Part shown: in pieces, positions 663-59,548 of the stretch
How the letters are laid out: every line of letters starts with the position of its first letter
How positions within the stretch are numbered: the first letter of the stretch is position 1
Source of the DNA: Tubulanus polymorphus
Lineage: Eukaryota; Nemertea; Palaeonemertea; Tubulaniformes; Tubulanidae
Reading direction: 5' to 3'
NCBI RefSeq assembly: GCF_964204645.1
Contig: NC_134025.1
Location: forward strand, 806,001-870,000
DNA: 64,000 bases
Made by a program: the position numbers and the translations under genes
Notes under the pieces: model-generated
Told to the model about the DNA's origin: nothing
The model's input: the letters and a program-made list of their open reading frames with translations, nothing else
Database searches by the model: none

Positions 663-6780
<6,118 letters not shown>

Positions 6781-7565: not shown

Positions 7566-11357
<3,792 letters not shown>

Positions 11358-35740: not shown

Positions 35741-38700
35741 ATGGCGCAATTTATACCGACCAGGAGAATAGATCTTGTCATTATAATTTTACTCGGTGTC
35801 ACAAGTAACGTATTCTGCGCAGGTAAGTGAAAGGTTTCTATGGAGGATCCAATCCGTTCACATTTCTGAACTAACTCTCAATACAGAATTAACCGAAGAA
35901 CGTGGAACTGGGTTCTAATGTTTACAATCGCTGTACCTATTATTGAACATCAATATCTTACCAAAATCAATTCTGCTGAGTAAATAATAGTTTATTGATC
36001 GTTCTATTTTATTACAGATTTTATGTTCAATTCTCTGTCATTCTCGATGCCGTCTGGAATGACTATTGGTCGTACATACACTCTGTACGGTCGCGCTGGT
36101 CTACGTAGTAACGTGTATATACCTACAAGTACGTATTCATCTTATTTCATTATTTGGAATAATGATGTGAATGTTGAATTAGTTCATTTGTATCAGTCAC
36201 AAACATTCATTTGTGGGTTCAATGTTTGAAATGTGACTAACTTCGCCAACAACTAGAATATAGATATCCCAAGATAAGACGAATGGAAAATAAATTGCGA
36301 ATAGTTTTTTTGTCTTCAGGAATCAATCCAAAACAAAGAAACAAAGATGCAAAGATCGATATGCATATTCTTTAGATCTCATACTTCTTCACTAACATTA
36401 GAATTCCTGAAGATGCCCTTTAGGATATTGTCAAAACGTTGAATAAACCATTATCTAGAGGTCGAAACATTTCAGACTTATATTCTTATCGTAAGATTGA
36501 ATATGATCTTTTACAACACTGACTCAAAGTGTTTCATCAATGGTTACCTATTGAATTGAGTTCAGACAGTTGCACAGTGATTTCATTTGATTTTAGCCGG
36601 AGGTAACTTTCCATCCAAAGTCTACTGCATGGAGTACGATGTGACGAACGGAGCTCCACCGAGTCCGCTTCCAACTCCAGCTATTCCAGTAACATTCAGA
36701 CCGAGTGGTGGAGAGAACTGGGGAATACTCGGAGGACGAACTTCAACACGATCTATACAAATTACATTTACAGTACCGTCACCTAAACCTCTATGTGACG
36801 CCTGTATATATCTGTGTATAAACAGTGATGCTCCGCACGCTAATGAACAAGCGAATGAGAAAGACAATAACTGGGCTTGTCAAACGACTTCTTTATCATG
36901 TGATACGGGTAGGTTTACTAATGATATATATTTCATTGATAATCAATGATTATCACACAACTGCTGATATTTCAAAGTTTATTTATCTGACAGCTTCGAG
37001 ATCTATCTGAATTCCATCTTCACAGAAACAGTAATGGAGGCTATTTTGTGAAATCATTTCCGTTTCTCTGAATGTTGGATTTAGATAAAACTGTCAGATT
37101 TATAAACTTCAAAAATATTATCAATGTAGAGACCATATCAGTTTATCCATCACAGTTTGATAGTATTTCTTCGATCAAAACAGTTTCTACAGTTAATTTC
37201 TAACTTTTACTCATTTACAGACGTGAGTTTAACATCGATGTCGTCAGTACCGACACTTTACGAATGGAAATCTGTGCAAACTCCTTACTACGTCGACGTG
37301 AAATCTGATAAATCATTTACTGCTACAACTTCAACTGATAATTTTGTATTAACTACATTTTTCTCTGATAAAACAACAGCGAGTTGCGAATATACAACAA
37401 AAATGGTACCGTATAGTTGTACACCTCTAGCCGGAGCCCCGAATATCACTACAACTATGACTTCAAATTTAAAACAAGGTTTAACCGGAGGTAAAACAGT
37501 GACATTATCTGGCACGGTAAATTTCCCTGCACTTCCGGCAGCGATATGCGGTGTTGCGACGCTCCATGTCTGTACAGTCATCTCAAACTCTACTGATTCT
37601 ACTTGGGGAGAAATAATCTCAAATATGAACAATAATATTCAGTGTCGTCCTGTAAATGATAGATTCTGTACTCCAGGTAAGTGAGAATAGAGATATTCAT
37701 TACAATTAGACAGGTTTACAGATTACAAACTCTCTACCGGCCGCTTCTATCGGGTTTACCGATAAAATACAAATCCGGATTAGGCAGAAAACGAATGCAC
37801 CAGAAGAGAATTCCGGAATCGGTAGCGACCAATCGAAACCTGTCTAAATCAAGTCTGTCTGTTATAACTGAATCATTCTGTTTTCACTTTCAGATCCGAT
37901 GATTGATAATCCCGTTGCCAGCGCCCCCTGTCTGATAAAAGGGAAAGCAGTTTCGTTGGATTTCACATTCGATATAACAAATAATAAACGAACTGATATC
38001 ACGACTGATACATTTACTAATATTCCAGCATCGACTGGAGGCACGAATTTCGCTATAGTCGCCATGTTAACATCAGCGGCGACGATCCCTCCAACATCGG
38101 CGACTACTCTTTACGCGTACAATCTTACAACTACACAATCTATGGCTCAGAAATTAGATACCACAAACAAGATTACACCAGTCAATGCTAAAGCGAGTAA
38201 TGTTGTAATAACTGATAAATGTAAAGATGTAAAATATGTTTGTTTTTTGTTAAAACCTGGAACTAAACCGACATACGCGGTCGACTTTGACCTCAACAAT
38301 AACCACACTTGTACGACAGACGCCACTCTGTTTAATGACAGGAAAATCTGTGATCCTGGTAAGAAATGCTTCATTCTTATATTTAGTAGCCATGCACAGA
38401 ATTTAAATCATTAATTTTTGTGTGTATTTTGTAGATCTATCACTGACTATTTCGAAAATACAACCGAAACTACAAGGAGTTGATGTTCCAATAAGTGATG
38501 GTTACCCGGTCGATTTAGATATTGATTTCTCATTCAAAAACGTGGCCACAAATCCAGACATCGCTTCAGGAAACAATGTTATTGCGCCGTGTGGAGCTTA
38601 TAATAATCATAAATTCACCGCGTTAATCATTAACAAAGATTTAACTAAATCTGCGAGCGCGATCACGTGTTCATCGGTTATTACAAACAGCGCTCTGAAC

Positions 38701-41700
38701 GCTACTGTTTTAACTACTATAGACTCGACTACTATTCTTCGAGCTCCGATACTCGCAGCTAGCGACGGTCCCGCTATACCGACTAATAAAGAACTAACTA
38801 ATGTCAGACTAACTCCTGAAGATTGTCTATTACCTAAGTATGTATGTATATGCGTTGAACCGGACCCGGCTGCTGGTTGGACTGACTTCAATATGACGAA
38901 TAATTTCGATTGTAAAGTGATAAAACAGGACTGTGGTCCGTGTAAGTATTTTACCCTAAGCCTGGCGCCAACTCCCTGAGAAAATATATTTGAGGGAGGA
39001 ATGTTTTTAATTTACAGCTATTGGAAATCTACCGAATACAACTTGTATCTATGAGAATGTTACTGGTGATAATTGGTTATTTACTATAGAAGCTTCAGAT
39101 CCTGATGACGATTTATTAACCTGGCATTATTACGCGTCTCCAATGGATGATAGTTTCTATATGGATCCAGCAAACAGTGAGTCCCGATATTTCTACACTA
39201 AATACTGCGGGTGTCTCGGATAATGAATTCTATTTGTTTAACAGGTGGAATCATCAAGTATAGAGCCAAACATAAAATAAATTACGAGAAAATAAAGGAA
39301 TACAAACTTCACGTAATGGTTACGGATAGTAAAAACAAAGGCGTTACTGGAACTTTGAATATCTGTATCAAAGATTCAAATGATTTACCGAAATTCCACA
39401 ATTTACCGGCGACTGTAACTGTTCCTGAAAATCAACTTCATCAAGCTTCAATATTTCAGGTATACATCATAATTAACTCTTTTTCTCATTCTATCTAAAT
39501 TATGAAGTGTTTTATTACAAGTTATAATTGACGTGTGTTTTTTTGTCTAATGTTTACAGTTAAATGTAACGGATGAAGACAATGATCCTATTGCGTTTAA
39601 TATCACATCGTCTCAACCTAAAGATGGTGTAAACAAATTCACTGTGGATCGCAGTAAGTGCGCGGAACATAGAAATATCTGACAGAAACACTCTCTGAGA
39701 GTCCGTGTTTTAGTGATCTCACAATAAGAATGAAAAAATATTCCTTTGTTTCCCCGAGAGCTAATTATAGTCTATTCGACATTTCGACTATCTGAAGATG
39801 ATAGAATCATATTATCTGATATGATTATATTTTCAGATTTAGGTGTGGTTTATGTGAAGGATAATGCAGGAATAGATTATGAATATTTATGGGATAATTA
39901 CATCCCGGCTCCGTCTTATAAACTGAATATAACAGCTTGTGATAATACAGGATGTACAGCAGCATTTCTGAATGTTTCAATACTAGATGTTAATGAACCT
40001 CCATTTTATTCACCAAATAAATCTAATCACTTCAAAATCAAAGAACCAGCCACTGTAAGTTTTAGATCAAAAACTCTTTCGCTGAACGATTCATATCAAA
40101 ACATCTGTATTTTAAATTGGGTGAATTTATTGCAGTATGCTGCGCCATGTCCGGCCCGAAGAGGAAGAATATTTGCAATCCAGACGGCAGGAGATGTTGA
40201 TTCATTTATCCCATCTTCACCTCCTAGAGATCCATTATCATATAGTTTATACGATAAGAAATATGTGAATGATTTTTATAAACAGCACATAGTTGGAGGA
40301 ATGACTATTTGTGAAGGCGACTCGGTGATAGACTATGAAAGCACTACATTACCGCGTATATTCTATATAGGTAAAATTATATGTTACTATAGTTAAACAA
40401 CTAAAGGGTCGTGTAAAAAGGAATAAGGGTTAGGGTTAGGGTTAGTTAAATCAATATTAATTAAAAAGGAATAAAACTAAGATGGAACTAAAAGAACTCA
40501 TCCACCAGAAAGTCATTATTAGGCAAAAGCAGATCGTGACATATTGTATGGTGCTAATCTGCAACCCTTAATCTAACAGGGCCTCACAGCATACCAGCCG
40601 TGCGCACTATAACCCGCAGGTATTGAGATGTTTAATATTGAATATTTCAGATATAGTTGTCACTGATTCTGGATTCCAACATGAAGGTGACAAGAAGGGT
40701 ATTGTACCTTTATCAGCCGTTTATCAACTGAAAGTTTACGTGCAAAATATGTGTGAAACGCCATATTTTACTGCCCTACCACAAGTATCAATACCTGAAA
40801 ATACACCAGTCGGTACAACAGTAGCTGAGGTAGCTGGTACAGATGCAGATCTGTGGTTATACGGTGAATTCTGGTTCACTGTTGATCCTACAAATAATGC
40901 TTCCAAATATTTCGAAACTCGAAGAATATCCCGAACACGCGCCGCTCTACTGGTGAAATCTCCCATAGATTCTGAGGTCTACACAACATTCATCAACGTT
41001 CCAGTTAGAATTATTGACTATTGTAACAAAATAAGGACTGGCACGGTGAAAGTGACCGTTTTAAATGTCAATGATAATGCTCCGGTTTTTAACCAAACAC
41101 TTTATAACTGGGAGGTATCGACAACAGCAGCGATCGGAACATTCCTGGGACACGTCTCCGCTACTGATGCTGATAACGGTAATCTATTCAATCGTCTTTC
41201 TCTCTTCTATCAAAGGTTAGAATTGAAATATAATGTTTTTCTATTAATTTCTCTATATTTCTAGCTGTAACTTCGATCACGTATAATAAACTGTATCACG
41301 CTGAGATGTTTTCCATGAACTCCAGTTCAGGAATGGTTGATACTTTACTCACTCCGATGTTACCTTACCATAAATACGTATTGTATACAGTCGCTTCTGA
41401 TAACGACCCGAAAAATCCGCTCAAATCGCTGTAAGTTTTCATCTATAAAACCAGATATAAAACTAGAATTATTGATCTCTCGAATATTTATCTAATTAAT
41501 TTCAGAGTATCTACGATAAGAATTGACACATACGTGGAATGCGAGGTTCTCACTAGCTGGTATTCGAAACAAAATCTTCTACATTTCAATTATGCCAGAA
41601 TTCAGTCGTTTCTAATGAGTTTACAACCACTTTGTAACCCGTGTTTACCACGACTACACAATATATCTGAGATTAACGGGTGCGGCGATCTGTTTTATCG

Positions 41701-42426
41701 CATTATTCGATATTTTCTGGTCTAATCGCCGATAAATGAATGATATCTGATTTTCAGGAAAGCGGTTCTGATTATATATTTCCTGAAAGATGGATCTACG
41801 GAAGTTCTGGGAAATATCGGAAGACCGAAAGAGTTTCTTACTAATGATACCGTATTAAACTCATTATTACCGACGGATTTGACGCCGTATGAGATCAGTA
41901 GTGTCACTAATACGTGTCCTGTTCCTGTAGTTGTGACGTCATGTAATTGGATTCTGTGTACAATCGAAGGGAATTTGTTACTGGGATTTTTACTATCGGT
42001 AGCATTGACCGTGTGGTTAGGGTTGATATTAGCTATTGGTTTATACTTCTTCCCTACACATGAACGACACGGGTAAATCTTACAAGTTCCATACTTGAAT
42101 TCAACATAAACCGCAACACATCAATTTAATGTTTGAAAAAGCATCGAAATGAAGTTGCATCTATTTACTTTTCTTTCAGACAACGTTTGGACACTCCGTT
42201 TGTGAAAGGAGGTGATTTTGTTCGGAAAGTAGAGACTGTTCGGTTCCATCATCCCGAGGCTGCTCAAGGTATAAAATATCGTGTTTCATCATAATTTTGT
42301 GTTGTTCATAAAGATTAAATTGAAACTTTATATTTTCTATTTTCAGGAGATTTAGTGACTCTTGATTTTCGATATTCTGATAACCCGACAGTGGCGCGAC
42401 GATTCCTACCGGAAGTCAATGGATGA
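35741..42426 (+). CDS. Large single-pass receptor with cysteine repeats and cadherin repeats, paralogue A
   Basis: Seventeen exons, all in phase: 35741-35822, 36018-36128, 36597-36908, 37221-37676, 37894-38358, 38435-38941, 39018-39176, 39245-39459, 39560-39653, 39837-40054, 40136-40370, 40651-41178, 41265-41430, 41506-41679, 41758-42072, 42180-42268, 42347-42426; 1401 residues. Signal peptide 1-27. Residues 28-644 are four CARDB-like beta-sandwich repeats, each ending in a C...VC or C...LC pair, Asn-rich NNxxC and CxPG/D. From 645 to about 1180 come cadherin repeats with DEDNDP, LDVNEPP and LNVNDNAPVF calcium motifs. A membrane-near domain (1183-1300) precedes a helix (about 1311-1338, GFLLSVALTVWLGLILAIGL) and a 63-residue tail. 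Probably an adhesion or recognition receptor. AATAAA lies at 42548. I know no named family with this order. Confidence 0.85.
40425..40445 (+). repeat. Short telomere-like (TTAGGG) run
   Basis: AAGGGTTAGGGTTAGGGTTAG in the intron between exons 11 and 12 of receptor A. Three units; an interstitial trace, not a telomere. Confidence 0.8.
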
Positions 42427-42702
42427 TGATCGTATCGTCATCTATATCGTACTAATCGTATCTTGTACTAATTATCGTGAACATGTGTATCCGTCTGCTT
42501 TCTGTGTATCCGTCTGCTTTCTGTGTATCTGTCTGTATTAGTGAAACAATAAAGCATTTTCTATTTCAGTTTCCAGTTGTAACAAAAAAAAGAAAATCAT
42601 TTCGTTACAAAATATTCCATACCTTGTTCTATTGATCATGAATTAATTCATTTATTCCTGTCAATTTTGCATTGACTGATGTTTTCTGTTTGGGGGTGAA
42701 TG
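42427..42702. other. Convergent gap between receptor A and the GPCR
   Basis: 3' UTR of receptor A with a triplicated TGTGTATCCGTCTGCTTTC word and AATAAA at 42548, then the GPCR 3' side. Confidence 0.7.
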
Positions 42703-43755
42703 TTAGGTCACTGAGAATGAAGCGCGACATGAGGCCCAAATCCTACTGAAAATATTGTAGGTCTCTAAACGGAATCTTTTATTTGTTAAACAGTAAACGG
42801 AAAAATTAACACAAGAATCAAACATTGACATTAACAGTGAAATCTTACGAAGAACCATTTGATCTATTCCAGATATAGTCAATGAACTTATAAAATAGGG
42901 CAGTCGATCGACACATCCGGGAAACTCACAAATAATATAAACCACGACAACTGCTGAAACCATCTTCAATATTCCTGCATCTTTATCCCGGGCAGAAGCG
43001 CCACCTATTAGCGATTTGCGTCGTTTTCCGGCCCAATTATACACGACAAACAGAATTGCGTTAACAATTAACAGAAGGGTGATTGGTAGGTAAACCATAC
43101 CAATGGGGACTGTATATCTGGTACTGATACCTGCAATGAAATGCCTCCTAGGACGAACACGAATATCTGTATACTCCGGCCAGTAAACTGTATAAGTGTA
43201 CTGACCTGGTTTTAGACACGGCCATCTCGTTAAACCCGGTATTATGTTGGGAACCATAAACGGATAGTAAAGTAATATTGATACTAATAATAACAATAAA
43301 CATAGTAAATTAATAGTTGAAGGTTTCCAGTAGCGTTTATATTTCAACGGGAAAATAATGACTAAAATTCTCTCTAAACTCACAACAACAACGAACCAGT
43401 TTCTGACAAACTGTGACGGATAAAAGCCAAAGTAGGCTACAATTATAAACCACCAACCAAAATACCAGTCATCATAACGAAAAACCAAGTCACCCAGATT
43501 ACTGTAGATAAAATACGTTCTCAGCGGATACATGGTAAAAGACGATAAACTGAACGCAAGATCAGCGATTGCTAAAATACCGAGAGTATGATAACAATTA
43601 TTGCGTAGTCTCTTTATAACGATAATAGTGAGTAAATTCAACAGAATACCGCAAATGGTGACAGGACCCATTCCTATCATGTACATATAAACACTGAACT
43701 GATAGTTCCATCTTATTTTCTCAGTGCAATGATACTGTGAACTATTCACTACCAT
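42703..43755 (-). CDS. Rhodopsin-class G-protein-coupled receptor, peptide-receptor type, intronless
   Basis: One uninterrupted frame of 350 residues with seven hydrophobic segments. N-terminal Asn-Ser-Ser at 4-6 can be glycosylated. Class A marks: GILLNLLTIIVI in helix 1, LAIADLAFS in helix 2, SLERILVIIFPLKYKR at the end of helix 3 (Glu-Arg at 128-129 in the DRY place), a Cys at 180 in the second outer loop, CEFP near 276-279 in helix 6, and DSCVNFSVYCLTNKRFR in helix 7 in the NPxxY place. These wordings are usual in invertebrate neuropeptide receptors (FMRFamide and related groups). The ligand cannot be told. It lies on the opposite strand between the two receptor paralogues and converges with the first. 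Confidence 0.93.
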   Translation of the reverse strand: MVVNSSQYHCTEKIRWNYQFSVYMYMIGMGPVTICGILLNLLTIIVIKRLRNNCYHTLGILAIADLAFSLSSFTMYPLRTYFIYSNLGDLVFRYDDWYFGWWFIIVAYFGFYPSQFVRNWFVVVVSLERILVIIFPLKYKRYWKPSTINLLCLLLLLVSILLYYPFMVPNIIPGLTRWPCLKPGQYTYTVYWPEYTDIRVRPRRHFIAGISTRYTVPIGMVYLPITLLLIVNAILFVVYNWAGKRRKSLIGGASARDKDAGILKMVSAVVVVYIICEFPGCVDRLPYFISSLTISGIDQMVLRKISLLMSMFDSCVNFSVYCLTNKRFRLETYNIFSRIWASCRASFSVT

Positions 43756-46418
43756 GTCTATTCACTGCCACTTAATTCGACCTGTAGTTGCCTTAGAATT
43801 ACGATAACGATGCATGTGCAAATAGATTTCATAAGTTAATAGAAGCGCTGGCGCTTTTGTGAAATCGATACCTATGGTAATGTATAATATATAAAATTGT
43901 AGCTATCATTACGTTGAGTATTTCTTCCAGTAAGAACCCGACACAACCATACGTGAAAACTAAATGAAGAATATATTTCTGCAAAAAATATATTTGAAAT
44001 TGACGACTGAAAAGAGATTTACTTGATTTATATTTTCTGATTTATTAACAGCAGGTTTTATTCAATTCACAACGTACTAGCAGTGGTTATTCAGTGTTAC
44101 TTTGTTGAGTTTGAGTTTAACAACTGCAGGGACGTGGTCGTTTAACAGAAGTTACCAGTGACCTTCAATATTGATATTGTAGCGAATTTGTGACGAAAAT
44201 AGCCAAGAAATCATCAAGAAATCGCCTTTCACTAAACGTCCAGGGGCAAATTGCGCAGTCTAAAAAAGGTCTTAAATCTTGAGACTGGTCTTAAGTTGTA
44301 AGATTGGCTATAGAACTAAGTTGGTCTAAGACTGATCTTAAGTCTAAGCCATGACTATGCAACCGGCCCCTGTGATTCTTGACTCTTTGTTCCATACTAA
44401 AAAATCGCGCATTCTGCTGTATATATTATTACTGTGTTGCGTGTAGATTAAACTCGCTATTTAAAATCATTTGTGTTCAGTTTTCTGTAAGGTTTTCCGT
44501 TTTCTATTGAAACTCGAGGAGATTATGTTTAATTCACCGTGAAGACTGTTAGACTTCACCTCACTGCATTTAGACTTCAACTCTGTGCATATTAGCTTCT
44601 TTTCCCCCCATTTAAACAAAACCTAACGATAATATTTTTTTTCGATTGTGCTCACATCTTTGTGATTTCTTTCTGAAATAAACCTTCTCACAAAGAAGCT
44701 TTTCTTTTACAACAAGAAGAATTCATATTTCGTTTCGACAACGTTTTACGTAAACTAGATATATTTTCTGAACCAATTATACATAGAAAGGCTGGTTGTA
44801 AACTTCAAACTTTACTTTATCCGAAAAATTCGAAGTCGTATATTACAAAATGAGTGTTACAAAAACAATTCAACTGAAGAGGTAATGTATACAATACAAT
44901 CAAATTCTTAAGAAATGTTGTTGATGACATACGTTAGATTTAGATATCAAATACACGTAGTTGAGACTATTTCCAGTTTTGAATGTTATTGAGTGAAACA
45001 ATAGCTGTTCTCTATATTCTCTAGCTTCAGCGTGGGTTTTCACTCAAGACGATTTAGATTTTTAAAATATTTTTGGATAGTTTATTGATTTGGACAACGA
45101 ACCTATGTGAATTAGGATATCATGATATCATAAATGAATTGTAATCGACAATAAGGCTAACGACGATTATTACTGTAATGACCCTCAACAAGTTGTTGTA
45201 AATAAAACATACGTTTTTCAAATATAGAATTATTCAGTGTATGATTAAAGTAAATGTTATATTCAAACCTCAACAGTCTTATTTCTTCTTAAAATTCGAG
45301 TTCTTGCTCTTTTCATATTTCTATAGTGAAAGAATTGAATTCTTTTCATTTTCCTACAACGCGAAGGAAACCATTTATCTGAAGCACACCTCCGATCTGT
45401 CAACGAAACAATCAAAGCTTTCATAGTCGCTTCTATGTGAAAGGTTATTTTTTCGACAAATAACCAGCAAATTCCTTTATTGGTGTCGTACACCTGAGCT
45501 CATCTTATAACTTTCAATTGCCTCAATTGTTTGTACAGTATTGAATCGTAGACAAACATTGAGAAAAAACTGACTTAGCGGCGGTCGTCTCGCGTTTAGT
45601 AAGAGATTGATATAAACTATACTGCGATCTTTATCAGGTTTATATATTTAACTCGATCGTTTTGAGAAGTCGTTTTTTATCACACATCGAAAACGGCGTT
45701 TTATTATTAATAGGTTTTATGTTTTTAAAACGGTAAGGATTTGTTTTGCGTATTTCGATGCGATAATACATGTCTGTTTTAATTGATCGATAGGTTTTTA
45801 CGAAAACGACCATAGAATAACAAATTGTTTGCTTTGATTTTCAATCAATTTGAAGTCGACCTGGTTGATAATACTTCTCACGATTAAAGTATAGGAAGGG
45901 TGCTAAGAATTTCAAACTGTGCTGTGCGGATATTAACAAATGAAGGGTATAGAATTCTATATTAAGATTTAACGTTATTTATATTAAGAATGAATAGAGT
46001 CCGAAATGTTTCCTTGAGCTACTATTTTATTCGAGGTTTCGTCCAGATCCTAACAGTTATTTTCATGAATATCAATTCGATAATTCTACTTATTCATTAT
46101 TCATTCGTTATGACTATACTATTAGGATTGAAACATTGAATAAGTATCAGCTTAATCAAAGAAAACATTTTTCACTTTTTTGCGTTTTTTTAGTTTGACA
46201 TGTTACATTATCTGCACAACACGGACTTAGAGTGTTACATCAATGGTTTATAACTGAATTTCACATCAGGAGCTGCACACTTCTCACTGGATAATACTGA
46301 TTAAGGTTCCACATATTCCTTATTACAAACACGGACTTAGAGTGTCGCATCAATGGTTTATAAATGCAAATTACATCAGGTGCACTGCTCAATGGATGAT
46401 TAAGATTCCACCAATAAA
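43756..46418. other. Intergenic between the GPCR and receptor B
   Basis: AT-rich, no gene recognised. Contains the palindromic element at 44241-44372, and near 46200-46370 two similar stretches (ACACGGACTTAGAGTGT..GCATCAATGGTTTATAA) that are a short direct repeat just before the receptor B start. Confidence 0.5.
44241..44372. repeat. Short palindromic element (GGCCGGTT family)
   Basis: From CAGGGGCAAATTGCGCAGTC to CTATGCAACCGGCCCCTG, with GGTCTTAAATCTTGAGACTGG arm and core GATTGGCTATAGAACTAAG. Confidence 0.9.
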
Positions 46419-49400
46419 ATGGCTCATCACCGACTTCACTGTTGGCTGATACTGATTGGTTTATTCTCGACATTAATGGCCCTACAGCAAGGTACAGTCA
46501 TTAATTCACTACTTTACAAGTACATTAAATTTGCTCTTCAATAACGTTAGATTTTACCTAAGAGGTTTTTGAAACTATTTCGGTGTTTATTATGAGTGTT
46601 CGTTTTTACTGTTTAGTTGGAGTATATGAAGAAAAAAAAAACAGATACAGATTAACATTTCTCTTTTGTAGATCAAATAGTTCAAAACGTAGATAAAAAG
46701 TCCTATGAAAGATTTTCGGAAACGTTTTCTATTTTGTTAAACACAGATTATCGAGTAAAGACTCATTGATTGTTTTTAAGTATAGGTGTTTACCGTAAAA
46801 CAAAACAAAAAAACATATACGAAATATCATTTCTCATTCATATAAACATATATCAATTTAAAAATATTTTTCAAAGCTTTTCTTTAAGATTTGTTTTCTT
46901 TGGTATTCTATTACGTTAAATGACGATTTTATGTCAGCGAGTTCACTGTCTTTTTGCTCTTTTGGGTATTTTATTAATTCTAGATTATGAAGTAAGTGTA
47001 TTTACGGCAACAATGCCTGCAAACTGGGTTGCTGGATCTACTATCACAATACCAATATCTGTATCTATTAGACATATTGCCGTTGACGCCATCGCTGCAC
47101 AACCAGCCCCCAGTAAGTTCTACCAAGAAATTCATATATCATTCACTTGAACTTCATTCAGTATGTCAATTATTTTCTATCCAAGAATTGTGATTTCATG
47201 ATTTTATTGTTAAATAAGTATAATTCCTGAAGATGAAGACTAGTACTCTATAGGATATACGTCGTCGAAACGTTGAAAATAAACGATTTACTGAAGGAAA
47301 CTTTATGGACTCGTTACTTTCTGCTTGAGTGTCAGTTTTTTTCTTTGTTACTATCTACAACATCATCTTCTTTAATCATTTAAGATTTAAACTATGAAAT
47401 AGTGATTCGTATGACTCAGTACGATCTGAGAGCAGTTGGAGCGGGCTCTGATTTTACTACACCTAAAACATGTACACCGACAATCAACTTCGCTCCCAAT
47501 TCTCAACGGGTAAGAACCACAAAATCCGTATCTCACAATCCAAGCCTATAAATCTGAAATATTTCATTTGCCAATTTATGAATTGATGAAAAATTATTAC
47601 AATGCTACTTATCTTTTTATCACTTAATGATGAAACCTCATTATCGGGACTTTAAATATATTTTTTCTTGTTGTAGCATCAATATTCAGTATCAGGATAA
47701 AGTCGAAACGTTAAATAAACTACTAACTCAATGAAACATCTCGGACTATATTTTGATTCTGTGTGGGATTGAATTAATTCTAATGAATATACTTGTTCGT
47801 ACATTTTACAGTTGGGTCTACTGGTTGGACAGACATATTCTTTATCTGGTTCCGCTTCCTGTACGCTACCGAGTGGTGCGGATTGTTCTACGATACAGTT
47901 TTTATGCATCAGAGTTCAGGGCAATCCTACGAATGTCATAGCTCAGGATTATTTAGCAAATAATTGGAAATGTCAAGATTTATCGACAGTGACATCCTGT
48001 AGTCAAGGTAGGAAGCACTCGATGAAACCCTTTGATTCACACGAACAGCCTCATTCAATCTCTTAAGCGGAAACAGTGTTTCCGAGATCAAACATGTTAG
48101 ATTCCGCGTGTTCTATGTTACCCGTATTTCCTTGTTTCTCTGCGTCGTGTGCCAAGAAAAAACACGACGCTATTTCTTCAAATGCATGTTTTTGTGTCGT
48201 CATGACGATTTTGCTAGTGTCCCTCCCCTCGGAGAATGCTCATTCGACAGAATCTTTATCAACAACCATTGTAGCATTTTATTCGTTTAAAATAAATGCC
48301 ACCAAGTGTCCTATAGACTGAGAGCTAATATAGATTATTAACCCCTCTTGTGAACAATATACTTGATATTGAATGAAACATTGCGCACTGAGTTTGAATG
48401 ATATAAATACCTTCGGTTATAATAGATTTCAGACTTTTTTTTTAGTGTTTTTGTCGTACGCGGTTCAATCGGTATATTTACATTGAAAGAGGTAAATCCG
48501 AACGTGTGTTTCAACAACAGCCGCCGCCGCCACGCACTGCAGAAGTGTTCATTCATTTATCAGATTTTTAGACCTTATAAACATCCAAACGTTTTACGAA
48601 TCAAAATTAACGAAGTCAAATTCTAACAAACAAAAAGGAGTGAATGTGATATACATAGAAAAACCCACTTTCCACATTTATTTGAAGAATTATCGGAAGC
48701 AGAGAATTTAAAAAAGAGCCGGCGTTTCGGTCTCTAACTCCGCAGACGTTCGTTACACAAATCATTCGTGAATTCTGCGCATCCCGTTGCTGTTCCGTTC
48801 CATTGTTGAATATGATTTCCATGTCGTACTTCGTCTGACGATAAGAAAAAAATTATTCGTTGTGTATTTTTAGATTTGGAACTGGTTTCGTTCACAGCGC
48901 CCCCTGCGATGATATTATCCGTTCCTAAACTCGGCCAATCTGTGTCAATAACTCTAAAGAATGCGGCTACACCAGGACCGGGCGCTGATATCCATAGCGT
49001 TACTGGAAATAGTATCAACTATAAACTAGAAATGGGTTATTTTACTGATAATCTGGGAGCTACTCCGACCGCCGGCGCTACGGCGGTAACTTTAAGCGTC
49101 AGTCCAGTTTCAGACTTACAGAAATCACTGACAGCTCAAACATCCCTCATTCTATCAGCATCAGTAAACTACGCAGCATTAACTAACGCGTTTTGTGCGC
49201 AGGCTGAATTCGTGTGTATGAAAGTTTCAGCAGGTTCCGGCGCTGGATTTTCAGAAACAAATCTTAATAACAACGTCAAGTGTCAGCCATTGTCGCGAAG
49301 TTGTCATCCAGGTAATACTGCAGTGCCACCTGCGTCTAGAATGGCCATAACATAAAATACTATGTAACTGATAACACACGAATCACGATGCCTGTTCAAT

Positions 49401-52400
49401 ATGCAAATTCTACTATTTGAATATCTATATACTTATCAAATTCAATATTTTAGATCCAAAAGCTGTAACCTTGACAACGACAGTGACGTCTATAGTTTCC
49501 GATACAGCGACATCTATACCTTTAAATCTAGTGATCGATAACGATGCTGTAAGTGGTAATGATATAGTAGCATCGACCGCCGCTCATTTCGCATTGGAAG
49601 CGTTCTTCTCGACGGATAACAGCGGGTCCAACTTACTGGGTACTACACCTTACCCTGTGACAGTACCGGCACAAAACAGCAATACTGATGCGTTATTAGC
49701 TACAAACAGTACATCTATAACAGGCTCGGTAACAATGACTTTACCTTCCTCAAAGTGTAACCCGTTACACTATATCTGTATCCGACTACTACAAGGAGCT
49801 GACACTCAATATAAAGACGCTGATTTGACGAATAATGTCACGTGTTTTTCTATCGATTCATTCAAAGGATGTAAACCAGGTAAAATAGTAATAAAACTAA
49901 TGAAAGATATGAATTCGCAACACCTGACTGATCACCACGGCTAAATTATCAACTCTCTGACCAGACGACTCTACCACCACGACTGGTCTGTGGTCTAGTG
50001 CTTAGCACGCTTGGCCAGCACCCTCGAGGATGAAGGTTCAAGTCCTGCTAGGGTTATGGTTATTTAGGCCATTTTTATTGTAGTAGTAATTCACCTCCTT
50101 GGTTTAGGGTTACCTACAGCAGATGATGGTTGATCTAATAATTAATTGCCCCTAAGATACCTTTTTCGTCGTTTCTTCGTCGTTCCATCAGGTTTCTTTC
50201 TAATCGTCAGTTTCATAGTAAGACTAATGTAATTACAGATCCAGTATTGACTGCTTTTTCAATCTCTCCAACACCTCCAACCACCACCTACGTGTCAGAT
50301 GTAAACAGCAATTCTGATATTAGCGTTACTATCGGTAACGCGGCAACAGGGGGCGCTGCTTCAAATATCGTCAGCGATTCCGTTAAAATCAACTTCGTAA
50401 TAGACGTACGTAGATGTCATGTATCAAAACATTTTAAACTAATTCATAATTGCTTTATTGATTTTCAGTTTTTCGCTTATTTCAGGTGATCTTATCCGAT
50501 ACCGATTTTAATGTAACCGCAGCAACCGTATCACAAACATGTACAACATCTCTAACGTCTTTAACTGATGCATTAAACGCCGGAGCTACTGTTACAAAAA
50601 CCGGTACAACTTCTATTAATATACCCAGTTCTAAATGCAAACAGATACAGGTAAAATAGCGGTCCACATTTCATAATGTTTTGTACGATGATGTAAGGTT
50701 GTCTGAATTTTCTGACGCGTTTGAATATTTTGTTATATATATATATTCAGTTCGCCTGCGCTCATGTTAAAGCAGGTTCAACGGCTTCTTACACCGATGA
50801 AAACCCGAATAATAACTACTATTGTGTGGATATTGTAGCGAAAAAATCATGTGAACCAGGTAATTTATAGCTCCAATAATGAATCCAGCCGCTCGTCGCT
50901 TACTTCCCCGATGTTGTGTGGTCCGGTTTCTCACCACGACATTCGTCTGGTAGCCACGACAACCGTCCGGTAGCCACGACATCCGCCTGGTAGCCACGAC
51001 ATCCGTCCGGTAGCCACGACATCCGCCTGGTAGCCACGACATCCGTTCCGTGATCCAGCATAATCATCGGGAAGGCTTTCGTTGCACATAAACATGTTCA
51101 GAAGATAATTGATTGAATAGACATAAGAATTAAAACAAATGAATAATATTTGAAAAACGAAGGGTTTAAATAAAACCAATATGTATTTGATACTTTTACA
51201 GATTTGGAAGTAACTTCAGTAACTCCATCACTTCCCACTACCAAAATAAACGATCAAAATGCTAAAGAATTATCACTTTCAATCGGGATCACTAACGCTG
51301 CAGCCGTATCCGCTACTGACGGCAACAATATTCTCATTGCCATAGCACCAGCGTTCAATTATGACGTCATAGCTTTCTTTTCGAATAACGCGGATCCTAC
51401 GTAAGTTTATACCGCCGGAAATATACTAGGTCATCTGCATCAATCATTCTTATAATTATGATCTAATGTTTATTGTTTCTAAATTGTACAGAGCGAACAC
51501 TCTGGGAGAACCGAACATTACATCGATAACTTACACAACAGTAGCGGATAGACGCGCCGGATTGACACCAGGTGGCGCTGCGACGATTAATGGCGCCAAA
51601 TTCAGTACGACAATACCCGCGGCAAAATGCGCGAGCTTCGATTACGTATGCGTATACGTCATAAGATCTACTTCCGGTCAGTGGAGAGATTCAAACTACA
51701 CGAATAACGTCAAATGTGGTGACGTCACGGCGCTTAAAGATTGCGCCCCTGGTAAATAGCATTATATCCACACGGGAAACTATTGAAATGTATTTTAGAT
51801 TCAAAGTTTTCGCTTCTTGTTTCTCGCTAAATTGTGTGTAAAATTGTAAAACGTGTATTAATTACATTAGTTACAATATTACATTGAAACCGAATAGAGA
51901 TGATTTTGGGGAAAGAAGGATCAACAACAGCAAACTGAAAATAATGTACATTATCAATGTTTAAAAATGTTCAATTTTAATCATAGTATTTTTGAACGTG
52001 CCAAAGACTCATGCATTTAAAGAACAGCCGTGTACGAATACGGGAGATGTTGTATTCAATATATCAGCTGTTGATGGTAATAACGATGTATTGACATATT
52101 CAATACAAACCGCCGGATCACCGTTTTCAACAACAGGTAAAAATATAGAATTCATTAAACATCAGGGTCCAGTTCCACAGTTGTGAGTTAAGATTTTACC
52201 CTGGGTTGAAACATTAAAAATGAACTAACTTTAACTCAGAGTTAACTCTAACTCACAACTGTGGAACTGGGTCCAGGGGCCGGATGCACATTCATAGCTT
52301 AGACCAGTCTGAGACCAAATTAGTTATCTAGCCTATCTGACAACTTAAGACCAGTCTTAATATTCAAGACCACCTTTGGACTTAGGTCACGACTGTGCAA

Positions 52401-55400
52401 AAGACCCCAGGTTCCACAGTTTGACTCAAAATCCGTCCTTTTCAATGTTTTAAGTCTGGATGGAGTCAAATACAAGAACTGTGGAACCTGGTCCACGATC
52501 CATCTCGATTAGTCACTACAGTGTCGGCTCAATCTATTCTGTTTTTAGGTTCTAAAATAATTCTGTCGTCATTGGTCGATTTTGAGACTGGTCCAAACAA
52601 TCGACCAATCACCGTTCGAGTTACGGATGGAACGACACCTATCGACGGAACCGTAACTTTCACTATTGACGACTGTAACGAGGTTCCGGTGGTAGCCAAT
52701 CAGACTGCTTCATGGGATGAAAATAAACTGGGTTTAATTCCGAGCCCGGCGATGACGGCGACTAACCCGGAATCAGTGGCCGGACAAACTGTACAGTTTA
52801 GTATCAATTCAACAAATCCAGTTACAACAGGATTAGTTACAATCGATCCAAATACAGGTAGAATCCTCCTCAAAATCCTCACATAAAATATACTCCAAAA
52901 AGACTTCAGGTTACTCTTCGTATTTCAGGGATAGTAACAGTGCTGCCACCTGGGTTAGATTATGAAACTAGTAGTGTATACACGCTGACAGTGTATGCTA
53001 CAGATAACGGTCTTCCATCGATGACTGGTATCGGATATTTCACTATAAATGTCGCTGATAAACCCGATTCTGTAGTTATACATAATTTAGACGATACTGT
53101 ATCTGTATTCGAGAATGTGACGACAGGGGGCGCACTGTTCGTTGTGAATGCTACGGATCCTGATGGTGATACGGTTTCATTTTTACTCTCAGCTTCTCCT
53201 GACGATGGTAAATTCTCGATTGATTCAGCCACAGGTTCGTATAATCCCTCTAGACCCCCGTTTCGCATCCGTCAGGTGCGGTGGATTAATCTTAACGGAT
53301 CCCTGAACGAATAACCATAGCCAACGCAACAACATCAACGAAATCATTCTTTCAAACCCGATTGATAATTCTTCATAATCTCGAATCCTTTGTTTAATGC
53401 ACATGTAATTTGCATTAGTATAGGTGAAATTGGCTATAAAGCTATTCAACAAAGTACCCCGCTTCAAAACTCGTTTTAACCAACCATTTCGAAGTGTGGG
53501 ACTCTGATAGAAATTGTTTGTTGTTCATTTGGTCTCTATGATAATAACGAATTCAGAGTTAAAGCATCTTATTCATCAGATAGATGTATTTTGTATTTGT
53601 TTATAGGTGAAATCAGTTATAAAGCGGTTCCACTGTTTAACTATGAACGGATACCTCAGTATAAACTAACAGTAATGGCTAAAGATGGCACGACGACCGG
53701 AACAGTTCGTACATTAACATTGAATATAATAGATACCCCAGAACCTCCTAGATTCATCAACCTACCCGCTACTATAACAATACCAGAAAATAGAATCAAC
53801 ATCGCTGATTACTATACAGTATGTATTTACAATCCTGTTCTATCAACATGAGAGATATACGTGTATTTTTCATACGAATTATTACTTTTTCATAAATATG
53901 GACTAATTTCGTGTTTTAGTTAAAGGCGCAAGATGATGAAGGGGACCCGATAACGTTCACCATTTCGAGCTGGTCCCCTAAAAACGGAGCGGACAAATTC
54001 AAACTTACAAGTATTGACATGAATCAGCCCTTGATTATATCCATCACCTGGGTGAACTTCGGTTATCTGAGTTAGTCGACTATTTGTCAACTAAGTGAAA
54101 CCGATTGTCAGTCAGTCGGAATTCTTATCCGAAAATAATGCATCTCAGGATTGAGCACGTTAGTTCGAACCTAATTCCAAGATGGCCGACACTATGGAAT
54201 GCGTTAAGAACGAACTATAGCGCGTTCGATTATCAGCTCCGACGAAATCCGAAGTTCACCATCAGTTTTCCGCCAAAATATCAAATCCCTGATTATGAAA
54301 ATTAAGTTAATTCTATCAATCAAAAGTTGGTTTCACTCCGCTTTCAATTGTTCCACAACGAATTGTTGCTGTATGATCTTGTTTTTTTAGATGCGGGTCA
54401 ATTGAGTTCGGTGCTGAACCCAGGCCTGAATTACGAAGCGAATCAAACGTACAAACTATCAGTGAATGCTTGTGACAATACTGGGTGCGACACTGGCAGT
54501 TTAACTATCGATCTGAAAGACGTCAATGAGTTCCCACAGTTCACTCCTGTCTCGTATAGATTCATACGAGTTGTTGAGGTATCTACAACAAACTCTTTAC
54601 ATTCATCTGTCAAACATTTATTTCATTTATTCTTGATATTTTTATACTACAAATTGTTTAAGGCAGTTAAAAACGCCAATGGCGCAGAAGCTGTCTGTTT
54701 TCCACTTTCCATACGTGGAAACTATGGCTATGACCGTCATAATGACAAAGACAAGTGTCCCCTGTGAAGTTTCTGGGTGTTTCAAGTATCATTAAATTCT
54801 AACGATTTGATAAGATAAAAAAAACCACTATACAAAGATTAAAAGAATTTAAAAACAAGAATTTATTTATTCAATCTAAATTATATAGAATACACGACGT
54901 TTATGGTCTCCTCAGATACCCCTGCTTTTAGTCTATATCTCACACATGACGATGATCTCTAGTGTGAGATCGAAACGTCGTGTATTCTATATATTTTAGA
55001 TTGAATGAATAAATTCTTGTTTTTAAATTCTTTTAATCTGTAGATAGTGGGTTTTTATCTTATTACCCGTTCACCACGTTTGAGTGTGTTTATCGTTCTC
55101 TAACGATTTGTTTATCGATTTACCGAGGCAGCGAGGATTCCACTTCTCAATATTACAGGCCATTTTATGAGAGCATTTCTTCACCTTTAGAGGGGCCTGG
55201 TACATGAGACTTTTGACCGCTCGTGAAAACCAGGTTTAAAGCGCTCTAAGCTAGCCTTATTCATCTAGCCGATCAAGCGTTATTTAAGCCCCATTATCAT
55301 CATTTTCATTGCTGTTATCATCAAAATCATTTATGATTAAGGAAACGGCTAATAAATCTTTATTGATTTAAACCGTTGAATTCTTGATTACGTAACTAAA

Positions 55401-58400
55401 AATGTGTGTATTTCTAGCCGTCCGTGAATATCAAACTGACATCAATCGATCCTGATCGATCGGATAAAGCCACGTACTCAGTCATGCCTGGTCCTTACTC
55501 CGGGTTCTTCTTCATAAATAAAACATCGAAAGAATTGTTCAGTTCGTCTTTGAATTATGAGAGCAAAACGTTACCGAATCACTTCTCAATAGGTAAATAA
55601 ATCTGTACCTCGATATACGAGATACGAGATACGATATATATATATATATACGAGATACGAGATACGACATATGAGTTTTTTTTCCATTAACAAATCAGTA
55701 TAATATGATATATTTAACATTCAGAATAGACATTGATAATGTATTGATATTAGATTAAGGACTGTACAACAGTAAACTTCATCTAGCAGTTTTTTATAAA
55801 GATATTTTTGTAAATCGCATCTTTAGAGAAACAGTAAATGTTAGTTTATAAAACCTTTTCTTATTGGTATCTAAAAAGAATAAGATTCATTTACTGTTCT
55901 TCTGAAGATGGGATTTAGATGACTTCCGAAATTATCAGGTACATAAACTTAGACAATGAGTATCATCTCGTGGTATTAATCATTGATAGATTAGTAATAT
56001 CTCCGTTAAGAAGTCGACTATTGTTTACGTATCATTTCAGATATAAAAGTCGAAGATAAAGGAAAATTATCATCAATTTTACGATGTTATTTTGAGATCG
56101 TGAATAAAAATGATGAAACGCCGAGATTCTTTCCAAACAGGATTTCGGTGACCATTAAAGAGAATGATTCTCCTGGTAAAAAACTGGCTACATTCAGAGC
56201 TTTCGATTTAGACATTGGTAAATAATAACCACTGACAAGTACGGTTGATAACTCGGGATCCAGTTCCACAGTGTCATAAGAAAATGTATTACGTTTTGCT
56301 TTTTTAGTGACACTGTGGAAATGGATCCTTCAACTCTGAAATTACTTAGTTTGCAACCATTGTTTAAGTGTAGAGTTGAATTTTATGTAAAAGCTGAATA
56401 ACTTTGCTTTATCAAGAAGTGTTACATTTTCTCACTTCTTATTCATCTATTTTTTGATAAGGAACATTTGGAACATTCGACATCAGAGTAGATCCGACCA
56501 GTTACGCATTTTCATATTTCGAAACTAAAACAATCGATACGCTTAAAAATGGTTTAAAAACCGTCGATCTCCTTCTCAAAACACCGCCAGATAAAGAGGT
56601 CTATAAAACTGGTCCACCGACTTTTAAGATACAAGGTATAGATTGCTGTATACCCGGTGTGGTTAACACAGGGGAGGCGACAGTAACAGTTACATTACAG
56701 AACGTCAATGATAATATACCAGTATTCAAACAAAGTCTTTACGATTGGGAAGTTTCATCTACGGCAGAAATAGACACAGTTATCGGACAAATAGAAGCTA
56801 CTGATGGTGACGTAGGTAAGAATCCGTTATATTTAAAATTATCTTCAACTGAATTCACACGATTCGAATCTTGTATATTCAACAAAAGATACAACGCGGC
56901 GGTTTTGGTTGTTTTCTAGCAGTTATCGCCAGGGGCTGCTTACATAGTCGACACTTAAGTCCAAAAGTGGTCTTAAACGTTAAGACTGCATTTATAAGTC
57001 GTTAGTTTGGCTATAGAACTAAGATGGTCTAATGCGAGTCTTAAGTCTAGTTCATGACCGTGGATTCAGTCCCATGATTAAGTATAAACTTAGAACAGTT
57101 AAAATTCGAATTAATCATCGAAAACCATTAAGCCTTATTTTTTCCTTTTCCTAAATTATTCGCATTATCTTTTGTTAATATATTTGCAGCATATTTTGAA
57201 GTAACGTACGAACTGTTGTATCCTAGTGGTGAATTTATTCTGGGTCCGATTAACGGAAGTGTTAGCACACTAACGACACCTATGTTAGTTTATCATGAAT
57301 ACTTACTATATGCTGTAGCTACGGATACTGACCCCAACTGGAAATTCACCTCATAGTAATGTATTTAATGTTTAATATTCTATCAGAATTCGCTTACAAA
57401 GTTTTACGTTTCTTAGAACTGTGGAACTGAGCACAGAAGTTTCTAAATGTTCAACGTCTTCAAAATGTAAAATAGAAATACGAATTTCGTCGAATTAATG
57501 ACTGTAGACTTAGAACTAATCCGAGCGTCGTATTTCATGAATTCAGCTTTACGACGATAAGAATTGATACGTTTAAAGAACAAGAAATACTGACTTCATG
57601 GCACACGAAACAGACTGAAAATTACTACAACAATCCTTCAAATCTACAGCAGTTCCTCTCAGAGGCGAGTGGACTATGTGCGCCCTGCAGAGCTAAACTA
57701 CATAACATCACTACAGACAGGTAGTCGTATAGATGACTACTCTTTCTGACAACTTTTATTGTTCTAAATAATGAGTATAATATATTATTTTTTGTATTTC
57801 AGTAACAACGACACAATTCTGAATCTATATTTCATAAAAGATTCGTCGTCTATGGACATCGGCAACATCGGCAAATCTAAAGAGTTTTTCAGAGCTGATT
57901 CTATCATCGATAAATATACTAGACCTAATACGGCTGGTATTCCACTGTCGTGGGTTTCAGATAAACCGATATTTACTAAGGACGGATTATTCAATATATC
58001 TAACACTTACAATATCACACCCGTCGAACCATATATCTGGTGGTTGGATAATATTATTGGTCACATACTAATAGGAACTTGTATGACATTATTATTAAGT
58101 TTGTTTCTGGGATTTATTATCGGGATTGGACTCTGCTGCAATCCGCGAGCAACTCCTATCAGGTGGGTCCATTACAAAATCAGTCACTATTTTCTTTTGC
58201 TCTGATGATGATATTTAGAAACTGTTATTCTTCAACTACGAGTACTTGGAACACACAAATCTGTGAACGAAAGACAATTTATTCAAAGTGTAAATTTGGA
58301 AATCAAAAGGTTTATCGACGCCACGAAGTTTCGGCTCTTACAAACAGTCATTATCTTGTTGTGGTTAACTGTTATTGTGTTTGTTTTGCTGACCTGACAT

Positions 58401-59219
58401 TCTAATTGTGGAATTTTACTAAAATCTGCAATTATGTTTATTACGAATGTCTCTTCGTTACAGGCTCGAGTTGGATTCAGCTATTTTTGACCTGCGTGAA
58501 ACTAGAGTTAGATCAACAACAGCAGCAGCAACAACAGCAGCAGCAACAGCAGCAAGATCAACAGCAACAGCAGCAGCAATATCATCAGCAACAGCAGCAA
58601 CAGCAACAGCGGCAAGATCAACAGCAACAGCAGCCAATATCAAAACTACTGCAATCATTAAAAAACAAAACAATATTGCACTGAATCACATCGCTTCATC
58701 ATCTAATACACCGTCAATATCTACACGTTCTTACAACGATTCGAACTCGGGACCTCCGACACGAGAAACAACACTTAGTAATGATGATATTATCGAGGAT
58801 GAGCCGCCGTCGACTCCGAAATCTACAACTAGAATAGCGAGAATTTACGATCAAGGTAAGCGAGGAGCAGAATGACTCAAATCAACCAAGAATAGTCCGT
58901 AGAAGGATTGAGAACAGATCATAGTTCTAAAACCGATCTAACAACTTAACACCAGTTTTGAAATTGATTTAAGACAACTTTTAGACTGAATTCACGATTG
59001 TTCATTATTGGGCCCTGATCATTACAGTTTTAGATAATAGATAAAGAATGAACGATATGAGACTAGGTCATTATGAATTATGTAAGATTTTGATGTTTTT
59101 AATGTTTTTAAGATGCTGGAAAACCGTATGATTTCAACACGGAAACAAACGAAAGGTCGTACGATTATAACTTCGATAATAAAGTGTCGCCATCAGCGAG
59201 AGATGTCAGAGACTGGTGA
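46419..59219 (+). CDS. Large single-pass receptor with cysteine repeats and cadherin repeats, paralogue B
   Basis: Twenty-five exons, all in phase: 46419-46491, 46984-47112, 47385-47509, 47812-48007, 48874-49311, 49454-49879, 50239-50405, 50486-50650, 50751-50859, 51202-51400, 51492-51751, 51987-52136, 52549-52857, 52929-53234, 53607-53818, 53920-54010, 54391-54578, 55418-55592, 56041-56217, 56462-56815, 57190-57355, 57547-57720, 57803-58162, 58464-58855, 59113-59219; about 1815 residues. Signal peptide MAHHRLHCWLILIGLFSTLM. Cysteine repeats span about 25-762, cadherin repeats about 763-1470 (VNDNIPVF, KDVNEFPQF), then the membrane-near domain, a helix near 1617-1641 (TCMTLLLSLFLGFIIGIGLC) and a tail of about 174 residues with an Ala/Thr run and IIEDEPPSTP. 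Two late exons have exactly the lengths of receptor A (166 and 174). An extra exon near 54660 is possible. Tandem paralogue of receptor A. Confidence 0.82.
46920..47112 (+). CDS. Alternative first exon of receptor B (candidate)
   Basis: The frame of exon 2 stays open upstream to an ATG at 46920, giving MTILCQRVHCLFALLGILLI, itself a good signal peptide, joined without splicing to LDYEVSVFTATMPANW. The acceptor at 46983 has a strong pyrimidine tract, so both a spliced form from 46419 and a start at 46920 are possible. Confidence 0.45.
49985..50055 (+). repeat. tRNA-derived SINE-like sequence in receptor B intron
   Basis: TGTGGTCTAGTGCTTAGCAC (box A-like) and GAAGGTTCAAGTCCTGCTA (box B-like) at tRNA spacing, between exons 6 and 7. 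Arms do not fold into a clean cloverleaf. Confidence 0.55.
50936..51047. repeat. 20-base minisatellite in receptor B intron
   Basis: About five to six units of the type CCGGTAGCCACGACATCCGT / CCTGGTAGCCACGACATCCG between exons 9 and 10. Confidence 0.93.
52163..52494. repeat. Cluster of three abutting palindromic elements
   Basis: Three inverted-repeat elements lie end to end in one intron of receptor B: 52163-52276 (CAGGGTCCAGTTCCACAGTT ... AACTGTGGAACTGGGTCC), 52273-52410 (GGCCGGTT family in reverse, CCAGGGGCCGGATGCACA ... GCAAAAGACCCC) and 52406-52494 (CCCCAGGTTCCACAGTTTGA ... GAACTGTGGAACCTGGTCC). Confidence 0.9.
53418..53464 (+). pseudogene. Relic duplicate of a receptor B exon start
   Basis: TATAGGTGAAATTGGCTATAAAG echoes the acceptor and first codons of the exon at 53607 (TATAGGTGAAATCAGTTATAAAG). 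Similarity ends after about 35 bases and no donor follows, so it is a broken partial copy in the intron. Confidence 0.5.
54826..55050. mobile_element. Foldback element in receptor B intron
   Basis: Arms of about 80 bases are inverted: CCACTATACAAAGATTAAAAG on the left and TTTTAATCTGTAGATAGTGG on the right, continuing through TAGAATACACGACGTTT and AAACGTCGTGTATTCTA. A second small hairpin (TCTCACACATGA ... TAGTGTGAGA) sits in the loop. Confidence 0.85.
56256..56328. repeat. Small palindromic element in receptor B intron
   Basis: GGATCCAGTTCCACAGTGTCA and TGACACTGTGGAAATGGATCC are inverted; about 73 bases. Ends resemble the elements at 52163 and 52406. Confidence 0.8.
56929..57073. repeat. Diverged palindromic element (GGCCGGTT family)
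   Basis: From CCAGGGGCTGCTTACATAGT to GTGGATTCAGTCCC, with GGTCTTAAACGTTAAGACTG and core GTTTGGCTATAGAACTAAGA, in a receptor B intron. Confidence 0.8.
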
Positions 59220-59548
59220 TACCTATGTATCAGAGACTGATGATACGTATGTATCAGAGACTGGTGATACGTAGCCTATGTATCAGAGACTGATGATACG
59301 TATGTATCAGAGACTGATGATACGTATGTATCAGAGACTGATGATACCTATGTATCAGAGACTGATGATACCTATGTATCAGAGACTGATGATACCTATG
59401 TATCAGAGACTGATGATAGTATGTATCAGAGACTGATGATACCCATGTATCAGAGACTGGTGATACGTAGCCTATGTATCAGAGACTGGTGATACCTATG
59501 TATCAGAGACTGATGATACGTAGCCTATGTATCAGAGACTGGTGATAT
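59205..59548. repeat. Minisatellite seeded on the receptor B stop codon
   Basis: About 15 units of 21-24 bases (TATGTATCAGAGACTGATGATACG and variants). The first unit overlaps the last codons and stop of the gene (GTCAGAGACTGGTGATACC), so the array fills the start of the 3' UTR. AATAAA follows at about 59605. Confidence 0.93.

Follow-up and report, generated by a model that had tools for sequence, protein, structure and literature searches.

What kind of protein is encoded by two neighbouring genes of the nemertean Tubulanus polymorphus in which an array of cysteine-bearing repeats is followed by cadherin repeats? The genes, here termed A and B, lie in a window of 64,000 nucleotides (the whole stretch of DNA analysed, positions 806,001 to 870,000 of contig NC_134025.1 in assembly GCF_964204645.1; the contig is called C1 below), and their coordinates are those of the window. 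On balance, A and B appear to belong to a family of seven genes for single-pass adhesion receptors with rods of graded length. The adhesion reading is suggested by the combination of a secreted start, repeated modules, a cadherin stem and a membrane anchor.

Two neighbouring genes with one domain order

Gene A (35741–42426, 17 coding exons, 1401 residues) and gene B (46419–59219, 25 coding exons, 1815 residues) are both on the forward strand. Because the genes are split into exons, no long open reading frame spans the region. The models were produced by a gene finder trained on clear exons and then corrected by hand; they are backed by consensus splice sites, by codon bias and by the agreement of paralogues with one another. 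The start codon of A at 35741 and the end of the stop codon of B at 59219 coincide with the limits drawn in a preliminary description of this DNA, which had reported two neighbouring genes with the same unusual domain order. That order is borne out by the models, by their limits and by the alignment of A with B.

In A, four repeats of 141, 152, 155 and 169 residues follow a signal-peptide exon (35741–35822) that ends in phase 1. Repeat 1 (36018–36908), of a type termed R1, is encoded by two exons, and repeats 2 (37221–37676), 3 (37894–38358) and 4 (38435–38941) by a single phase 1-1 exon each; repeat 4 is of the last type and clusters with repeat 5 of B. Seven exons encode the cadherin repeats (39018–41430), which also match cadherins in the PDB. 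A membrane-near domain with the pattern RIDT...CxxC...GNIGRPKEF, recognised from paralogue alignments, spans two exons (41506–41974, intron 41680–41757) and is followed by a transmembrane helix (41975–42037, hydropathy 2.61) and a cytoplasmic tail with a C-terminal DFRY motif (42038–42426).

Gene B repeats this order. Its signal-peptide exon (46419–46491) also ends in phase 1, and its five repeats measure 150, 146, 142, 147 and 153 residues. Repeat 1 (46984–48007) and repeat 4 (50239–50859) are each divided among three exons and repeat 5 (51202–51751) between two, and repeats 2 (48874–49311) and 3 (49454–49879) are each a single phase 1-1 exon. The cadherin repeats (51987–57355), a two-exon membrane-near domain (57547–58064), a transmembrane helix (58065–58127, hydropathy 2.47) and a Thr/Ala-rich tail (58128–59219) complete the protein. 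The tail contains a CAG-type repeat (58514–58642) that is modelled in the ACA/GCA frame as Thr/Ala; a second open frame reads poly-Gln and then stops. A 24-base tandem repeat of approximately 14 copies (59206–59547) starts beside the stop codon of B and reads YVSETDDT in another frame.

A separate scan recovered the signal-peptide exons of both genes, and exactly one transmembrane-like window was found towards the C-terminus of each. The signal peptide, membrane-near domain, single helix and tail expected from the preliminary description are thus all present in both. Over the part from the cadherin repeats to the helix, A and B are 37% identical (E 2e-116), and over the repeats 26% (E 8e-31); the two genes are read as paralogues.

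Repeat, cadherin stem and membrane-near domain

Repeats from the seven gene models of the family form a set of 85 (C 39, D 25, B five, and A, A2, E and F four each). Four cysteine positions are conserved in 85, 85, 84 and 84 of them, each asparagine of the NNxxC motif in 83, and the opening aspartate likewise in 83. The cysteine/NN signature matches six times in the six frames of the window, and shuffling the window in two-base blocks gave no match in 28 of 30 trials and one match in the other two. The repeat was first described as approximately 145–170 residues long with a C..C, NNxxC and CxPG ending; the cysteines and asparagines stand, at lengths of 141–169 residues, but CxPG is an artefact of reading unspliced DNA, since the codon behind its G is cut after the first base by the phase-1 intron. 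In A and B the spliced repeat ends in CxP, and the opening D of the following repeat comes directly after it.

Searches of Pfam with 23 distinct members of the 85 (sets of 9 and 22, the latter being 22 of 29 representatives) returned rows at chance level only, and NCBIfam returned nothing convincing for nine repeats. The PDB sequences gave no row in one search and one row at E 2.2 in another. Similarly, prokaryote contigs and plasmids, each searched with one repeat, contained no convincing match. The four-cysteine repeat is apparently undescribed. A crude averaged secondary-structure count gave mostly strands and one short helix, which fits weakly, without proving it, the beta-sandwich fold that had been guessed at the outset.

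The same guess had named CARDB, a domain of bacteria and archaea, as a possible relative, and profiles were compared. The CARDB profile held 32 sequences, namely four PDB sequences and 28 domains from two plasmid proteins, in which 30 pieces were found and two shorter ones dropped. Local alignment with hhalign of the 85-repeat profile to this set scored 21.4 (E 0.0041, probability 8%) over 91 columns in matching order; a 9-row profile gave E 0.0089 over 45 columns and a 22-row profile E 0.056 over 49 columns. An earlier comparison with only the four sequences had given P 0.068 over 24 columns. As controls, a reversed profile gave E 0.70 and a cadherin-repeat profile E 0.17. The features aligned in order are N.A after an early strand, LSD.D, L.aG, tiP, a strand with Y-C, and D/E..NN. 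CARDB is shorter, at approximately 100–115 residues against 141–169, and the four conserved cysteines occur only in the animal repeat.

Other results temper the likeness. In global mode the alignment is out of register: at E 0.025, it sets the first half of the repeat against the latter half of CARDB. When the columns were shuffled 200 times, 195 trials scored at most 14.0 against the real 21.4, and five scored 130–205 over 7–23 columns. Stricter parsing left the same five high scores, and none of the 200 shuffles aligned more than 41 columns; the outliers are likely, though not provably, a numerical fault of the aligner. PF07705 (CARDB) was not reported for the 23 distinct repeats and gave no match when the whole genome was scanned in six frames, and no prokaryote locus was found with the CARDB structure 2L0D as query. 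Because of the 8% probability, the out-of-register global alignment and the outlier shuffles, homology to CARDB is not claimed, and kinship between the two is plausible but unproved. The original guess therefore keeps its local E-value and its strands, and loses ground on the probability and the global shift. A 33-kb coding sequence on Anabaena cylindrica plasmid pANACY.01 consists largely of CARDB-like domains in the 8.4 kb examined.

Tandem cadherin repeats exceed the Pfam threshold in both proteins. PF00028 matches A at 101.6 bits (3.3e-29, four stretches) and B at 143.4 bits (2.9e-42, five stretches), against a cut-off of 28.8, and a family profile counts four cadherin repeats in A, seven in B and 4–7 across the family. 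Calcium sites of the DxNDNAPxF type had been described for these repeats, but a motif scan found such linkers only twice in A and four times in B, several of them degenerate. No family besides cadherin exceeded its Pfam cut-off in A or B. No catenin-binding cytoplasmic domain, as in classical cadherins, appeared in either; up to E 10 only Cadherin_4 and RibLong were listed besides cadherin, both below cut-off.

The membrane-near domain was found by own-genome search at nine genes (A, B, C, D, A2, E, F, G and H), and an alignment of seven of them has 14 invariant columns; C was omitted, as its model shortens the domain, and A2, as a near-repeat of A. Searches of Pfam and the PDB with this domain gave chance-level rows only, the best in the PDB being interleukin-1 (E 0.12) and leukaemia inhibitory factor (E 0.15), and a two-row alignment had no match among viral contigs. 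Taken together, the searches of Pfam, NCBIfam and the PDB place A and B in no described family beyond cadherin. Among the papers listed by literature searches, none showed the repeat-cadherin architecture or its parts.

The domain follows the last cadherin repeat and precedes the helix, a position that it has in common with the membrane adjacent domain (MAD) of the MAD cadherins described in PMC8691648. A and B could on this ground be mechanosensory or microvillar links of the CDH23, PCDH15 and PCDH24 kind, with the membrane-near domain a form of MAD. The order of strands and helices drawn from the alignment would fit β-α-β-β-α-β, the crude count being ambiguous in both helices. Against this, no MAD match was returned among the PDB chains (protocadherin-15 chains were included, their MAD coverage unchecked), and to our knowledge no protein of the CDH23, PCDH15 and PCDH24 kind carries such a repeat array. 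Links of this kind are considered an unlikely reading.

Seven genes on one contig and the history of their arrays

Searches of the animal's own genome (267.8 Mb, 77 contigs) with the five repeats of B, with two other repeats and with the membrane-near part of B returned at least 76, at least 80 and at least 26 rows, all on C1. Seven repeat-cadherins were modelled there: A, A2, B, C, D, E and F. The pair reported at first as a tandem thus holds for A and B but belongs to a larger set, two of whose members are giants; the proposal of a new family agrees with the searches above, except that the family is more than a pair. A2 (C1:235–242 kb) is an inverted copy of A, 96–97% identical over two blocks that include introns. 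C and D (C1 26.53–26.58 Mb) are converging genes with approximately 39 and 25 repeats and approximately 6,900 and 4,800 residues, and E (C1 28.853 Mb) and F (C1 29.274 Mb) have four repeats each. Two further loci complete the nine genes with the membrane-near domain: G (C1 29.27 Mb, reverse strand) has a hydrophobic start, cadherin repeats and this domain, and H (C1 407–409 kb), known only without its 5′ side, resembles G in its C-terminal part. Neither locus had a repeat row in the three own-genome repeat searches.

Several of these models have doubtful ends. In C, a donor near 26554475 is suspect, the first and last exons are doubtful, and one exon ends at 26559985 while the membrane-near match continues to 26560013. 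The first three exons of D are doubtful, with a candidate signal-peptide exon at 26581441, and a candidate signal exon for F at 29274206 lies outside its model. The signal-peptide exon of A2 (C1:242422–242491) is 30% identical to that of A, and the similarity between the two genes starts only near repeat 1; the RIDT exon of A2 is present and open, though skipped in its model. Within the 9 kb at C1:439500–448510 there is a copy of the C-terminal end of A only, 97.9% identical over 1.8 kb.

A FastTree phylogeny of the 85 repeats (clades of 3–45 leaves from at least two genes, support at least 0.8) groups units by position. The first units of all seven genes cluster (0.94), as do the last units (0.90), and for the second and for the third units B/C/D (0.91 and 0.97) and A/A2/E/F (0.91 and 0.86) fall into clades of their own. 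Distinct first and last units therefore predate the gene duplications, and it is simplest to suppose that the ancestral array had four or five units. In C, mean identity between repeats is 0.61 at a lag of four units, compared with 0.27, 0.40 and 0.28 at lags of one to three; D is less regular, with 0.49 at lag 4 and 0.52 at lag 10. From this pattern and the tree, the arrays of C and D are read as having grown by duplication of the fourth and fifth unit types, the last two. Unit borders coincide with phase-1 introns in A, in B and at all but one of the modelled borders in C and D, and units can therefore be gained or lost in frame. Correspondingly, 39 of 40 repeat exons in C and all 26 in D are entered in phase 1, and 38 of 40 and 26 of 26 have a length that is a multiple of three.

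An alternative is that repeat arrays and cadherin parts are separate genes or products, which the gene finder alone has joined in the giants and perhaps in A and B. The gene finder does link exons freely, and the R1-type unit, which comes first in A, A2, B, E and F, is internal in C (unit 35) and D (unit 21). However, the order in A and B is read directly, with phases that match throughout, and the layout with an internal R1 unit is common to both giants. The introns before that unit measure 85 bases in C and 73 in D, too short for a promoter and a signal-peptide exon; because of this and the phase-1 entry, C and D are each taken as one gene. Separate products are accordingly regarded as very improbable.

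Between C and D, 20 exon pairs were compared, from unit 33 of C and unit 19 of D to the tails. Synonymous divergence (dS) is 0.08–0.19 in six pairs, at least 0.73 in eight and too saturated to compute in six. Nucleotide alignment blocks (blastn) of 86–94% identity span the low-dS exons; one block extends beyond them to an exon of dS 1.6, and another sits in an exon of dS 0.9. This patchy likeness is likely the product of conversion between the converging genes. The ratio of non-synonymous divergence (dN) to dS lies at 0.07–0.37 in the 14 pairs for which it could be computed, and C and D therefore look constrained.

Patchy homogenisation also speaks for another reading, that of recognition molecules for gametes or for self and non-self, in which fast-turnover arrays present variable binding faces instead of serving mainly as spacers. 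VERL is a known concerted array and offers a parallel to the homogenisation between C and D. The greater divergence between A and B in their repeats (26% identity, against 37% in the cadherin part) points the same way, as do the differences between A and A2, where non-synonymous and synonymous changes number 23 and 9 in five repeat exons and 10 and 10 in seven cadherin exons. That contrast is not significant, however (Fisher p 0.14), and diversifying selection between A and A2 was accordingly left unsupported. The dN/dS values between C and D are well under 1, and seven loci are few for a polymorphic system. Recognition is thus a doubtful alternative to spacing by rods of graded length. Over 15 paired exons, A and A2 differ by dN 0.026 and dS 0.050, and two exons of A are unpaired.

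The window has further features. Between A and B, on the reverse strand, a single exon (42703–43755) encodes a rhodopsin-type G-protein-coupled receptor (PF00001, 4.5e-11). Long, nearly pure CTG repeats of 80 and 66 copies (5546–5785 and 10369–10567) lie at matching places of two similar stretches (compare 6559–6804 with 11136–11381), and a local duplication therefore carries long triplet runs. Two similar cysteine-bearing, secreted-looking open reading frames on the reverse strand (29834–30430 and 32858–33280) are local duplicates with no Pfam match up to E 0.01.

A proposed graded reach, and comparison with known cadherins

Each repeat is proposed to be a mostly beta module, stiffened by disulphides and perhaps remotely related to CARDB, and the array to act as a rod that keeps binding sites away from the membrane, its length set by the number of units. 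Calcium would stiffen the cadherin stem, and the membrane-near domain would cap it. Through their tails the receptors would recruit partners, one of them perhaps common to the genes with a DFRY motif. The role would most likely lie in contact between cells or between their projections, cilia or microvilli for example, and the paralogues would bridge gaps of different widths. A cadherin repeat measures 4.5 nm, as given in PMC8691648. Applied to every module, an assumption in the case of the new repeat, this length yields a reach of approximately 36 nm for A (4+4 modules), 54 nm for B (5+7) and 200 nm for C (39+7).

Some considerations weigh against rods of graded reach. The membrane-anchored adhesion role, the fold of the repeat and the rod shape are all deduced from sequence. 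Most cadherin linkers are degenerate, and calcium stiffening may therefore be partial. The giants could be split transcripts. Finally, the DFRY motif, common to the tails of A, A2, E, G and H, is missing from those of B, C, D and F. The tails were at first said to differ completely, which is true of A and B, yet the motif of A recurs in four other genes; the different signalling partners once suggested for the two tails are weakened by this distribution.

A bolder formulation is advanced tentatively, as possible but not favoured: that an undescribed four-cysteine animal domain has been multiplied into graded extracellular rulers, from approximately 36 to 200 nm, on a shared cadherin stem and cap, with conversion keeping the long arrays of C and D similar. 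Known long cadherins gain reach through more cadherin repeats; here it is another module, one with cysteines, whose number varies approximately tenfold within one genome, from 4 to approximately 39. Provided that each giant is one protein, C and D would count as very long receptors of the cadherin type and would offer a natural test of what sets reach. As neither the repeat nor the membrane-near domain has a Pfam match, relatives elsewhere may so far have gone unrecognised.

Among known systems, Fat, Dachsous and CELSR are, like the A/B family, large cadherins with varied ectodomains, and the best-matching PDB sequence for the part of A from cadherin repeats to tail is CELSR1. EGF and laminin G domains, or very many cadherin repeats, would mark a member of this group; A and B have four and seven cadherin repeats by the family profile, and Pfam reported neither EGF nor laminin G, GAIN or seven-helix families in the two proteins. 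Coherins, lefftyrins, hedglings and TMEM132 join cadherin repeats to other beta-sandwich domains in one receptor, according to PMC6030884. A and B likewise combine cadherin repeats with other modules, which are putatively beta-sandwiches; no cohesin or TMEM132 family was found in the Pfam scan, which covered the whole proteins of A and B only.

A parallel in layout is offered by the Cr-2 cadherins CDH23, PCDH15 and PCDH24 (CDHR2), the MAD cadherins, in which tandem cadherin repeats are followed by a separate domain, one helix and a tail, as set out in PMC8691648. The A/B family has all four of these elements in the same order. It differs in having 4–7 cadherin repeats by the family profile, compared with 9–27, in a membrane-near domain that has no detectable sequence match to theirs, and in the N-terminal array of four-cysteine repeats that it adds to the common plan.

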